A stretch of DNA of 64,000 nucleotides from Mesoterricola sediminis. GTDB taxonomy: Bacteria; Acidobacteriota; Holophagae; Holophagales; Holophagaceae. The notes under the pieces are model-generated. The model was not told the DNA's origin, ran no database searches, and saw nothing but the letters and a program-made list of their open reading frames with translations. Below, piece after piece: positions 59,581 through 63,064 of the stretch. Made by a program: the position numbers and the translations under genes. Numbering within the stretch: position 1 is the first letter of the stretch; each line of letters opens with the position of its first letter. Location of the stretch: contig NZ_AP027081.1 of assembly GCF_030295425.1 (NCBI RefSeq), positions 930,001 to 994,000 on the forward strand, given 5' to 3'.

Positions 59581-60933
59581 ATGAGGAACCCGATGACGTC
59601 CCCCCTCCGCAGCCTCTCCGTCCTGGCCCTCGGCCTGGCCCTCGCCCCCGCCGCCTCCGCTTCGGGCTTCCTCCTCCGGGAGCAGAGCGCCGCCGGCCTC
59701 GGCAATGCCTTCGCCGGCGCCAGCGCGGGCAGCCAGGACCTCAGCTCCATGTTCTGGAACCCCGCCGTCCTCCCCGTGTTCGGGGGCCGCGAGGTCTCCC
59801 TGGGCGGTTCCTGGATCGGCATCCACATGGACCTGACCGGGGCTTCGGCCAGCCGGAGCCCGGTCTTCCAGCCCGCGGACCGCCCCATCGCCGGGGGCGG
59901 CCCCGACCTCCCCAACGCCGTGAGCCAGCCCATCCTTCCGGCCCTCTATCTGAGCTGGCCCGTGACCGACCGGGTCTACCTCGGCTTCTCCGTGAACGTG
60001 CCCTTCGGCCTGGTCACCGAGTACCCCGCCGATTTCATCGGCCGGTACCACGCCCTCAAGACCGACCTGAAGACCTACGACTTCGCCCCCAGCGTCGCCT
60101 ACAAGGCGGACGGCGGCTGGACCTTCGGCGCCGCCTTCGTGGCCCGCAAGGCCGAGGCCACCCTCTCCAGCGCCGTGGACTTCGGCGCCATCGGCAACGC
60201 GCTGGGCCTCCCGGGCTTCGTGCCCGGCGCCCGCGACGCGGTGAGCACCCTGAAGGGGGACTGCTGGGCCTACGGCTGGAAGGCGGGCTTCACCTGGCAG
60301 GCCACGCCGGACCTGCGGATCGGCGCAGGCTACCAGGCCAAGGCCACCTTGAAGGTGAAGGGGAACGTGACCTACAGCGCCGTCCCGGCCCCCCTGGACA
60401 CCACGTTCGTGAACGCCCCGGGCGCCGCCGACGTGCACCTCCCGGCCACCGCCAGCGCCGGCTTCACCTGGGACCTGTCGCCCGCCTTCAGCCTCCAGGG
60501 CGAGGGGGCCTGGACCGGCTGGTCCGATTTCCGGGAACTGCGGGTGCGCTTCGGCAGCGCCCAGCCGGATTCCGTGACGAACGAGTCCTGGAAGGACACC
60601 TTCTTCGTGTCCCTGGGCGGCATCTGGAAGGCGGCCCCCGGGTGGGCCGTGAAGGCCGGCCTGGCCTACGACCGTTCCCCCGTGGACGACCGCCACCGGA
60701 CGCCCCGCATCCCGGACGCCAACCGCACCTGGGCCTCCGCGGGCGTCTCCTGGCAGGCCAGCCCCGCCATCACCTGGGACCTGGGCCTCACCCGGATCTT
60801 CGGCCAGCGCTCCCGCCTGGCCCTGACCTCGGGCGTGGATCCCGCGGGGCCCGACTTCTACCGGGGCAACCTGAGCGGCGCCTATGACGTGGGCGCCACC
60901 ATCGTTGCCTTGTCCGGCCGCTTCCGCTTCTGA
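59581..60933 (+). CDS. fadL: FadL-type long-chain fatty acid outer-membrane channel
   Basis: A 450-residue outer-membrane protein with signal peptide (LSVLALGLALAPAASASG). The conserved N-terminal hatch is GFLLREQSAAGLGNAFAGAS, with the NPA motif in MFWNPAVL. Mid-region blocks PFGLVTEYPADFIGRYHAL and YDFAPSVAYK follow, and the end VALSGRFRF has a terminal aromatic residue. FadL proteins take up hydrophobic molecules by lateral diffusion. The start could also be the ATG four codons later. Position right after the lipase suggests a phospholipid or lipid scavenging pair. Confidence 0.92.
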   Translation: MRNPMTSPLRSLSVLALGLALAPAASASGFLLREQSAAGLGNAFAGASAGSQDLSSMFWNPAVLPVFGGREVSLGGSWIGIHMDLTGASASRSPVFQPADRPIAGGGPDLPNAVSQPILPALYLSWPVTDRVYLGFSVNVPFGLVTEYPADFIGRYHALKTDLKTYDFAPSVAYKADGGWTFGAAFVARKAEATLSSAVDFGAIGNALGLPGFVPGARDAVSTLKGDCWAYGWKAGFTWQATPDLRIGAGYQAKATLKVKGNVTYSAVPAPLDTTFVNAPGAADVHLPATASAGFTWDLSPAFSLQGEGAWTGWSDFRELRVRFGSAQPDSVTNESWKDTFFVSLGGIWKAAPGWAVKAGLAYDRSPVDDRHRTPRIPDANRTWASAGVSWQASPAITWDLGLTRIFGQRSRLALTSGVDPAGPDFYRGNLSGAYDVGATIVALSGRFRF

Positions 60934-60936
60934 ACC

Positions 60937-60958
60937 GGCCGCCCGTTGACGGGCGGCC
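60937..60958 (+). terminator. fadL-end hairpin
   Basis: GGCCGCCCG (60937-60945) and CGGGCGGCC (60950-60958) form a perfect nine-pair stem with a TTGA loop, four bases after the fadL stop. No U run follows. The loop and first stem bases also form TTGACG, the -35 of the his promoter. Confidence 0.55.
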
Positions 60959-60974
60959 CCGCCTGGGCTACGCT
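60946..60974 (+). promoter_or_regulatory. Promoter of the his leader
   Basis: TTGACG (60946-60951, five of six) and TACGCT (60969-60974, three of six) are separated by exactly 17 bases. Transcription would begin near 60981, directly before a GAGGT ribosome site (60984-60988) and the leader peptide. Confidence 0.55.
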
Positions 60975-60992
60975 CTCTCCTTCGAGGTCCCC

Positions 60993-61055
60993 TTGGCCCT
61001 GTCCCTCCATCACCATCGCCATCACGCTCCCCTGGGGGCGGATGGGACGTGGTGA
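60993..61055 (+). CDS. hisL: His-rich leader peptide of the his attenuator
   Basis: A 20-codon frame begins with TTG four bases after GAGGT and ends in TGA at 61053-61055. It has five histidine codons in a six-codon stretch (CAT CAC CAT CGC CAT CAC). Such a run just before hisG is the hallmark of a his operon leader peptide: ribosome stalling when histidyl-tRNA is scarce changes the folding of the RNA that follows. The frame is far below normal gene length and no database match is claimed. Its position, ribosome site, His codons and downstream terminator together make the call strong. Confidence 0.85.
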   Translation: MALSLHHHRHHAPLGADGTW

Positions 61056-61087
61056 CGGGCGGCGACGCACCGGATCCGAACCCCTTC

Positions 61088-61115
61088 CGAACCCCCCGGC
61101 CCCCCGGGGGGTTCG
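61088..61115 (+). promoter_or_regulatory. Alternative hairpin of the his leader
   Basis: CGAACCCCCC (61088-61097) pairs with GGGGGGTTCG (61106-61115). The stem extends by two GC pairs to a four-C loop. It lies between the leader peptide and the terminator, where a pause or antiterminator stem is expected. Which arm competes with which was not folded computationally. Confidence 0.55.
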
Positions 61116-61213
61116 CGTATGTCAGGACACCTTTCATGACCCCTTCCCGCCACGCCCATCCCCATCGCATCCCCCTGCCGGGGTAGGCCGGGCCGCATCC
61201 GCCCGAAACCACC

Positions 61214-61244
61214 GCCCCGGGAACCCACCCGGGGCTTTTCTTTT
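61214..61244 (+). terminator. Attenuator terminator before hisG
   Basis: GCCCCGGG (61214-61221) pairs with CCCGGGGC (61228-61235) around a six-base loop and is followed at once by TTTTCTTTT (61236-61244). This is the only classical intrinsic terminator seen in the window. It lies 12 bases before the hisG ATG, inside the transcript rather than at a gene end, as expected for an attenuator. Confidence 0.85.
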
Positions 61245-61256
61245 CCTGGAGTCGAC

Positions 61257-62096
61257 ATGGAACCCATCAACCTCGCGCTTCCCAAGGGCCGCATGGCCGA
61301 GGGGGTCCTGCGCCTCATGGAGGAGGCCGGCTTCAAGGTCCAGCCCGACGGCAGGAACTACCGGCCCCTCTGCGCCGATCCCCGCTTCCGCCTGAAGCTC
61401 CTCAAGCCCCAGGACATCGTCCGGATGGTGGAGCTGGGCCGCCACGACCTGGCCTTCGCCGGCCACGACTGGGTGGAGGAACTGGGGGCCCAGGTGGACG
61501 AGCTCCTGGACACGGGGCTGGACCGCGTGCGCATCGTCGCGGCGGCCCCCCGGGAGGCGGTGGCGGGGCTCAGGTCGCGCCGCATCGTCGTGGCCAGCGA
61601 GTACGAGCGCATCACCCGGACCTGGCTCGACCGGGAGGGCTTCGACTACCTCTTCGTGCGCAGCCACGGGGCCACCGAGGTCTTCCCCCCCGAGGACGCC
61701 GACATGATCGTGGACAACACCGCCACCGGGCGCACCCTGGAGGAGAACGGGCTCCAGATCGTGGGAGAGCTCCTCACCTCCTCCACCCGCGTCATCGCCA
61801 GCCCCTCCCTGGGGCGGCGGGACGAAGTGGACGAGTTCGTCCTCCTCCTCCGCTCCGTCCTCGACGCCCGCAAGCGGGTGATGCTCGAGATGAACGTCTC
61901 CCAGGCCTGCCTCGACGCGGTCCTGGGGATCCTGCCCTGCATGCGCATGCCCACCGTCATGCCCCTGGCCGGGGACGGGGGCTACGCGGTGAAGTCCGCC
62001 GTCCTCCGGAAGGAGGTGGCCCGCCTCATCCCGGTGCTGAAGGCCGCGGGGGCCACCGACATCCTGGAGTTCCCCTTCAGCAAGGTGGTCTCGTGA
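61257..62096 (+). CDS. hisG: ATP phosphoribosyltransferase, long form
   Basis: A 279-residue enzyme for the first step of histidine synthesis, joining ATP and PRPP. It starts with INLALPKGRMAEGVLRLME. It holds DLAFAGHDWVEE and the PRPP-binding block ADMIVDNTATGRTLEENGL near 150-168. The C-terminal about 70 residues (VLGILPCMRMPTVMPLAGDGGYAV) form the regulatory domain that binds histidine, so this is the long, HisZ-independent form with feedback inhibition. CTGGAG precedes the ATG. Transcription is controlled by the attenuator just upstream. Confidence 0.95.
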   Translation: MEPINLALPKGRMAEGVLRLMEEAGFKVQPDGRNYRPLCADPRFRLKLLKPQDIVRMVELGRHDLAFAGHDWVEELGAQVDELLDTGLDRVRIVAAAPREAVAGLRSRRIVVASEYERITRTWLDREGFDYLFVRSHGATEVFPPEDADMIVDNTATGRTLEENGLQIVGELLTSSTRVIASPSLGRRDEVDEFVLLLRSVLDARKRVMLEMNVSQACLDAVLGILPCMRMPTVMPLAGDGGYAVKSAVLRKEVARLIPVLKAAGATDILEFPFSKVVS

Positions 62097-63064
62097 GCGC
62101 CGCCTACGCGACCCGGGAAGGGCGGGGGGCCTTCGTGCGCATGGACTTCAACGAGGGGCCGCCCCCGCCGGCCCCGCTCCTGGCCGCGGACCTGGCCGGC
62201 GCCCTCGCGATGTACCCCGAGTACGGGCCCCTGAAAGAGGCGGCCGCCCGGGCCTGGGGCGTGGACCCCGCCCGCATCGTCCCGGTGAACGGGGCCGACG
62301 AGGGGATCTTCCTCGCCCTCCGCCTCCTGGGCGGGGGCGGGCTGGCCCTCCCCGTCCCGGCCTTCTCCATGTACCGCGTCTACGCGGACCAGCTGGGGAT
62401 CCCCGTCGCCGAGGCGCCCATGGGGCCGGACTTCGAGGTGGACGTGGACGCGCTGCTGGCCGCGCCCGGCTCCGTCGTCGCCCTCACCACGCCCAACAAC
62501 CCCACGGGCCGGGCCCTGCCCGCCGGGGCCGTCGAACGGGTCCTGGCCCAGGGGCGGACCGTGCTCCTGGACGAGACCTACGGCGCCTTCTGCGGCCAGG
62601 ACTTCGCGCCGCTGCTCGAGCGCTGGCCCAACCTGGTCCTCCTGCGCACCCTCAGCAAGGCCTACGGCGTGCCGGGGCTGCGCTGCGGGTTCATCCTGGC
62701 TTCCCCGGCGCGCGCCGGCGAGCTGGACGCCCTGCGCTCCCCCTTCAACGTGAACGCCGCGGCGGTGGTGCTGGGGGCGCGGCTCCTCGCGGAGGACCGC
62801 ACCTTCCCGGACCGCGTGGCGGGGGCCGTGGCGGCCCGGGCCCGGGTCCAGGACGGCCTCCGCGCCGCCGGCTACGCCACCTTCCCCTCCGACGCCCACT
62901 TCTTCCTGGCCCGCCTGGAGCCCGGCGCCGCCGGGCGCCTCGCCGCGGCCGGGATCCTCATCAAGGACTACCCCGCCCTGGGCGAGGGCATGGTCCGCAT
63001 CAGCGTCCCCGGTCCCGCCGAGGCCGAGGCCTTCGAAGCCGCCTTCCTGAAAGGACGCCCATGA
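62093..63064 (+). CDS. hisC: Histidinol-phosphate aminotransferase
   Basis: A 323-residue fold-type-I PLP enzyme converting imidazole-acetol phosphate and glutamate to histidinol phosphate. It has the substrate-side block FVRMDFNEGPPPP and VNGADEGIFLAL. The motif TTPNNPTG is near 132-139. The PLP lysine is Lys189 in LRTLSKAYGVPGLRCGF. It is somewhat shorter than typical HisC (about 350). The GTG start overlaps the hisG stop in GTGA. Confidence 0.93.
   Translation: MSAAYATREGRGAFVRMDFNEGPPPPAPLLAADLAGALAMYPEYGPLKEAAARAWGVDPARIVPVNGADEGIFLALRLLGGGGLALPVPAFSMYRVYADQLGIPVAEAPMGPDFEVDVDALLAAPGSVVALTTPNNPTGRALPAGAVERVLAQGRTVLLDETYGAFCGQDFAPLLERWPNLVLLRTLSKAYGVPGLRCGFILASPARAGELDALRSPFNVNAAAVVLGARLLAEDRTFPDRVAGAVAARARVQDGLRAAGYATFPSDAHFFLARLEPGAAGRLAAAGILIKDYPALGEGMVRISVPGPAEAEAFEAAFLKGRP

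Follow-up and report, generated by a model that had tools for sequence, protein, structure and literature searches.

Two consecutive His-leader units upstream of hisG in Mesoterricola sediminis: a probable tandem ribosome-mediated attenuator

In textbook amino-acid attenuation one leader peptide is coupled to one terminator, and the DNA preceding hisG in Mesoterricola sediminis raises the question whether a single unit of this kind, or two in succession, separates the promoter from the gene. The window, by which we mean the whole stretch of DNA analysed, comprises 64,000 nt of the forward strand (positions 930,001-994,000 of contig NZ_AP027081.1, assembly GCF_030295425.1); positions given below are counted from its first letter, and all the features described lie on the + strand. 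According to the original prediction, this region holds one complete his attenuator, in which a leader peptide with a TTG start governs a terminator placed just before hisG. Attenuation of the ribosome-mediated type is indeed well supported, not as one attenuator, however, but as two leader-plus-hairpin units, present in all of the 12 genomes of the clade described below; the assignment of the first leader to the terminator at 61214-61245 was mistaken, as a second His leader (61136-61186), which had been missed, lies between them. The 5' leader of the his operon is therefore described here as what it very probably is, a tandem ribosome-mediated transcription attenuator composed of two consecutive His-sensing units carried by one transcript.

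Read in the 5' to 3' direction, the sequence presents a promoter, leader 1, hairpin 1, leader 2, terminator 2 and hisG. The promoter (60946-60974), as read in the sequence, consists of TTGACG (60946-60951) and TACGCT (60969-60974) separated by 17 nt, and transcription probably starts near 60981; the motif TTGAC[AG] occurs at the matching position in 12 of the 12 tandem loci. At the other end of the region, the ORF list and the identity to relatives define a long-form hisG of 279 aa (61257-62096, with its ATG at 61257), with which the his operon of the window begins.

Leader peptide 1 (60993-61055), a frame of 20 codons and a stop with a TTG start (LALSLHHHRHHAPLGADGTW), is recognised both from the sequence and from its relatives; five of the six codons in 61008-61025 encode His, and the frame is preceded by the ribosome-binding site GAGGT (60984-60988), conserved in all five genomes of the window's genus (hereafter g1). 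All these elements, together with the 17-nt promoter pair, are found as originally described. The four other g1 genomes having a long HisG carry GTG at the place of the TTG, so that the non-ATG start of this putative leader, which had been pointed out from the window, is a property of the genus; the number of His codons in leader 1 is four to five in the five g1 genomes and four to six in the 12 genomes of the clade. Strand 2 of unit 1, CTGGGGG (61032-61038), comes from the fold predicted before the 3' arm is made. The stem at 61088-61115, CGAACCCCCCGG-CCCC-CCGGGGGGTTCG, had been taken for an alternative stem: the stem exists, but it is not merely alternative, being leader 1's own hairpin, with a 12-bp GC stem (-25 kcal/mol), a tail without a T tract and a sequence block that is conserved in the genus. 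A frame open from 61049 across hairpin 1 and on into leader 2 was considered and discarded, being absent from some relatives.

Unit 2 begins with the ribosome-binding site AGGA (61124-61127, read in the sequence), which in the other g1 genomes reads AAGGA, AAGGG or AGGA, followed by leader peptide 2 (61136-61186; MTPSRHAHPHRIPLPG), which has an ATG start, three His codons and a Pro-Gly-stop end. A second His leader is present in all 12 genomes, with three to seven His codons, and always ends in Pro-Gly or, in L031 and L114, in Ser-Gly, because its last codons encode strand 2 of the unit. In the window this strand, CCGGGGT (61178-61184), corresponds to the last two codons of leader 2 plus the first base of its stop codon, an assignment based on the duplex and on co-change; strand 3, GCCCCGG (61214-61220), common to the predicted antiterminator and to the terminator, is assigned on the predicted fold, the duplex and co-change. 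Terminator 2 (61214-61245) is made of a hairpin at 61214-61235, with an 8-bp GC stem and the loop AACCCA, and of a T-rich tail (TTTTCTTTTC), which confirms the hairpin with a T tract announced before hisG. On the d'Aubenton Carafa scale it scores +42 in the window, +42 to +56 in g1 and +22 to +56 in the 12 genomes; by comparison, random fragments of the window reach at most -9.5, with -20 as their 95th percentile and -46 as their median. The claim that terminator 2 is the only one of the window holds in so far as no stronger terminator turned up in a scan of 60 kb (4001-64000), but other matches to the terminator pattern exist there, weak and no commoner than in shuffles. In f18, an acidobacterial family of another class (loci L111-L114), leader 2 reaches the unusual length of 43-44 codons, and its His run comes at the very end. 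One draft genome (L005) counts against the tandem reading: although Pro-Gly is kept, the stop of leader 2 reads TTG instead of TAG and the frame continues through terminator 2, owing either to a sequence error or to a unit made constitutive.

The mutually exclusive pairing expected of an attenuator has been analysed in both units. When a ribosome is placed on the central His codon and the 3' arm is still to be transcribed, strand 2 is predicted to fold with strand 3 in 24 of 24 units. In unit 1 of the window, with the ribosome on the His codons, the predicted partner of strand 2 is 61093-61099; for unit 2, the stop codon of leader 2 marks the end of the best 2:3 duplex in 12 of 12 genomes. At one pairing position of unit 2 the families differ by a concerted change in strands 2, 3 and 4, from G-C to C-G in the 2:3 as well as the 3:4 pairing; this was seen by direct count in a register set by hand, the MAFFT alignment of unit 2 having misregistered the terminator arm. 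Strand 2 also forms a more stable pairing with the strand 3 found in its own family (about -17 vs -13 kcal/mol), and mimics strand 4 both in Holophagaceae (CCGGGG(U) or CCGGGC vs CCGGGGC) and in f18 (CCCGGGU vs CCCGGGU). Taken one sequence at a time, strands 2 and 3 are in most cases no more complementary than shuffles of such GC-rich DNA (window z-scores of -0.6 for unit 2 and +0.6 for unit 1). In equilibrium folding both window hairpins beat the antiterminators at every ribosome position tried, and switching would therefore have to be kinetic; with a masked ribosome, a clear switch is obtained only in unit 1 of L002, unit 1 of L004 and unit 2 of L111, and a partial one in unit 2 of L002 and of L005. 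By inspection, the His codons of leader 2 are directly followed by a CCCC able to base-pair with GGGG in strand 2 (61171-61183), which could represent the classical protector 1:2; cross-pairing between the 3' arm of hairpin 1 and strand 3 of unit 2, again by inspection, is possible in Holophagaceae and apparently not in L111.

The distribution of the arrangement was followed by searching long-form HisG in the genus, family, class and phylum, and by scanning 500-1200 nt upstream of hisG for leaders. Two His leaders, each followed by a hairpin, are present in 8/8 Holophagaceae genomes with a long HisG (five from g1 and three from a second genus, g7) and in the four f18 genomes found, giving the total of 12. 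A His-run ORF with a ribosome-binding site thus occurs twice before the first his gene in the window and in every genome of the clade; in g7 and f18 one conserved promoter is followed by two leader-plus-terminator units in one transcript, and the correspondence is partial in g1, where two leaders and two hairpins are accompanied by a U tract on the second hairpin only. Unit 2 ends in an intrinsic terminator in all 12 genomes, and unit 1 in g7 and f18 but not in g1. Loss of the His codons or of the terminator among relatives had been named as an observation that would overturn the prediction; both are kept, and the attenuator has survived.

Outside this clade the single unit prevails. Another family of the same class (f3) has a single leader and terminator in 6/6 members with a long HisG, and in the rest of the sampled phylum the tandem is confined to f18: among 26 other acidobacteriotal loci, 14 have a single His leader, eight have none and four, all from f18, are tandem, and among 40 further loci the corresponding numbers are 30, 10 and zero, most of these leaders being placed 470-660 nt upstream of hisG. 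In a survey of 80 long-HisG loci from many phyla (in which L033 yields leader peptides identical to those of L113), about 26 carry one convincing His leader, and the tandem is found only in Holophagaceae and f18. A his attenuator in an acidobacterium, put forward at the outset as the novelty, is not one: in most of the Acidobacteriota sampled, and at many loci from other phyla, a single His leader precedes hisG. What is new is the tandem arrangement. Many single His leaders of the phylum (L137-L176) lie about 470-900 nt upstream of hisG, apparently before another his gene, and seem to form an uncatalogued set of his attenuators.

HisG identity is 79-85% within Holophagaceae and 64-66% between these and f18, and a tree of 66 HisG proteins groups the 12 tandem rows in one clade (support 99/88) and places the proteins of f3, a family of the same class as Holophagaceae, far outside it; the tandem therefore probably arose once and travelled with hisG, its spread reflecting either transfer between f18 and Holophagaceae or retention. 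Most Holophagaceae (L016-L030), including L029 (G003, placed in g1), give a weak match, apparently to a short-form HisG, which probably has HisZ directly upstream; no His leader was found at these loci, and the long HisG, along with the tandem leader that precedes it, seems to be a replacement.

Since hairpins and complementary strands arise easily in GC-rich DNA, the His-rich frames and GC hairpins of this intergenic region might be attributed to chance. The + strand of the 64 kb window, however, contains two ORFs of at most 45 codons with at least three His in eight codons, and both are found here; a 5-in-6 His run or two non-overlapping His ORFs appeared in 0/1000 dinucleotide shuffles of the region, which folds better than shuffles (z -2.6), and the retention of both leaders and both hairpins in two families as distant as their HisG identity indicates refutes the explanation, whose probability is negligible. 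It is also very improbable that leader 1 alone governs the terminator at 61214-61245 through a long-range alternative pairing, the ATG frame being incidental: leader 1 of the window does have more His codons than leader 2 (five vs three), but leader 2 is kept in all 12 genomes with its stop-codon region as the predicted partner of strand 3 in each of them, and in g7 and f18 leader 1 has a U-tract terminator of its own.

The role of unit 1 in g1 is the point on which the remaining alternatives turn. In all five g1 genomes hairpin 1 lacks a U tract (its tail reads TTCGCGTATG or similar), and because of this it scores only -13 to +1, whereas in g7 and f18 the corresponding hairpins have T tracts, are terminator-like and score +20 to +56. 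These values would suit a g1 attenuator in which only unit 2 works, leader 1 and hairpin 1 being a decaying relic; yet few blocks of the g1 alignment are as conserved as the stem of hairpin 1 (invariant in its CCGGGGGG arm and with a single variable column in its 5' arm), leader 1 keeps its His codons and the GAGGT site is invariant, all of which argues against a simple relic, since a decaying unit would be expected to lose the stem, the His codons and GAGGT, and leaves this explanation rather unlikely. The same conservation, the missing U tract and the short distance from the end of hairpin 1 to the start of leader 2 (15-20 nt in g1 vs 23-55 nt in g7 and f18) would also be consistent with a pause hairpin which holds the polymerase directly downstream until a ribosome loads on leader 2, with leader 1 tuning the pause; taken as the whole account of hairpin 1 in g1 this is unlikely, the hairpins of the relatives resembling ordinary terminators. 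As hairpin 1 has lost its U tract and yet remains strongly conserved, unit 1 of g1 probably acts within the tandem as a weak terminator, as a factor-assisted terminator or as a pause before leader 2.

From the parts, their conservation and the co-change of their strands, all read in the sequence, a course of translation, stalling and termination can be proposed for the tandem attenuator, together with the product logic that it would entail. In each unit a ribosome translating the short His-rich frame would report the supply of His-tRNA. When histidine is sufficient, the ribosome would reach the stop codon and cover strand 2 (in unit 2, the coding end of leader 2 itself), so that strands 3 and 4 form the hairpin; when His-tRNA is short, the ribosome would stall at the His codons; strand 2 would then be available for pairing with strand 3, and the polymerase would read on. 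The RNA polymerase would have to clear both units before hisG, and read-through should therefore approximate the product of two probabilities; were the units independent, the leak would be squared, and thus lower, and the response would be steeper. In g1, unit 2 would be a complete attenuator. A broader proposal is tentative, and we regard it as plausible rather than probable: that a same-signal tandem ribosome-mediated amino-acid attenuator, inherited with hisG in two classes of Acidobacteriota, gives a multiplicative, near-digital his response, and that unit 1 of g1, despite having no U tract, remains functional as a factor-assisted terminator or as a pause coupling the polymerase to ribosome loading on leader 2.

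Several known systems share part of this architecture. The enterobacterial his attenuator (hisL; Rfam RF00514, His_leader) likewise has a His-rich leader and mutually exclusive antiterminator and terminator before hisG, but consists of one unit instead of two; cmscan found no match to RF00514 at E up to 5 in positions 60000-62500 of the window, where only sub-threshold chance matches occur, and neither the window's genome nor any of 60 relatives gave a match above the gathering cut-off, with weak sub-threshold matches only. Single his attenuators are known in Proteobacteria and Firmicutes, according to the accessible text of PMC9413887; those of Firmicutes (Bacillus cereus group, Eubacteriales, Erysipelotrichales) resemble the present units in their 3-5 His codons, in their terminator and antiterminator hairpins and in their occurrence outside Proteobacteria, but are described in that text as single. 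Two short tandem ORFs in one leader mRNA are present in Salmonella mgtCBR, an operon for virulence and Mg2+ transport, where, in contrast to the same signal used here, they respond to two different ones, ATP and proline; its authors call their tandem a singular example, and in the literature searched it is the only leader termed 'tandem attenuators' (PMC3641672). In the mefA/msrD double lock, two same-signal ribosome-mediated attenuators stand in series and the two erythromycin-sensing leader peptides have been argued to suppress basal expression; there, however, arrest depends on the drug, and the second unit controls msrD only, downstream of the first unit and of mefA, whereas the two units described here are adjacent in one leader (PMC10314930). 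Tandem T-boxes and tandem riboswitches also place two complete one-ligand sensor-plus-platform units in series, from which a digital response is expected, but they work through RNA aptamers or tRNA binding, with neither ribosome nor leader peptide (PMC12452182, PMC9413887). The product argument has been put forward both for tandem T-boxes (PMC12452182) and for the mefA/msrD leader peptides (PMC10314930). No other tandem or double leader-peptide attenuator of an amino-acid operon was found in the literature searched, which covered few subscription papers.

Elsewhere in g1, a single trp attenuator lies about -210 upstream of trpE (L184, L183, L182), its leader reads, for instance, MNNSTWNWCWWPQGSGVCVGSLRT, or VVLSLNSLTWNWSWWPQGSGVGMGRLIS in the genome from which the window comes, and is succeeded by a hairpin with the short T tail TTTTCG; leader-peptide attenuation is therefore in use in the genus, whose attenuators are not tandem as a rule. 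The window's own genome also has a short Leu-rich frame, MFSLNVLNLHLGLLLISGAGED, about -269 from a leuA-like gene (L189), possibly a leucine attenuator.

In an earlier survey most of the attenuators predicted in Acidobacteria had no assigned function (PMC2965389). His leader peptides occur widely across Acidobacteriota, and the Rfam His_leader model in its current form does not reach them. The conserved serial pair sensing the same amino acid, if true, would provide a natural test of what doubling does, leak versus steepness, and the single-unit relatives in the same class permit a comparison of one unit with two.
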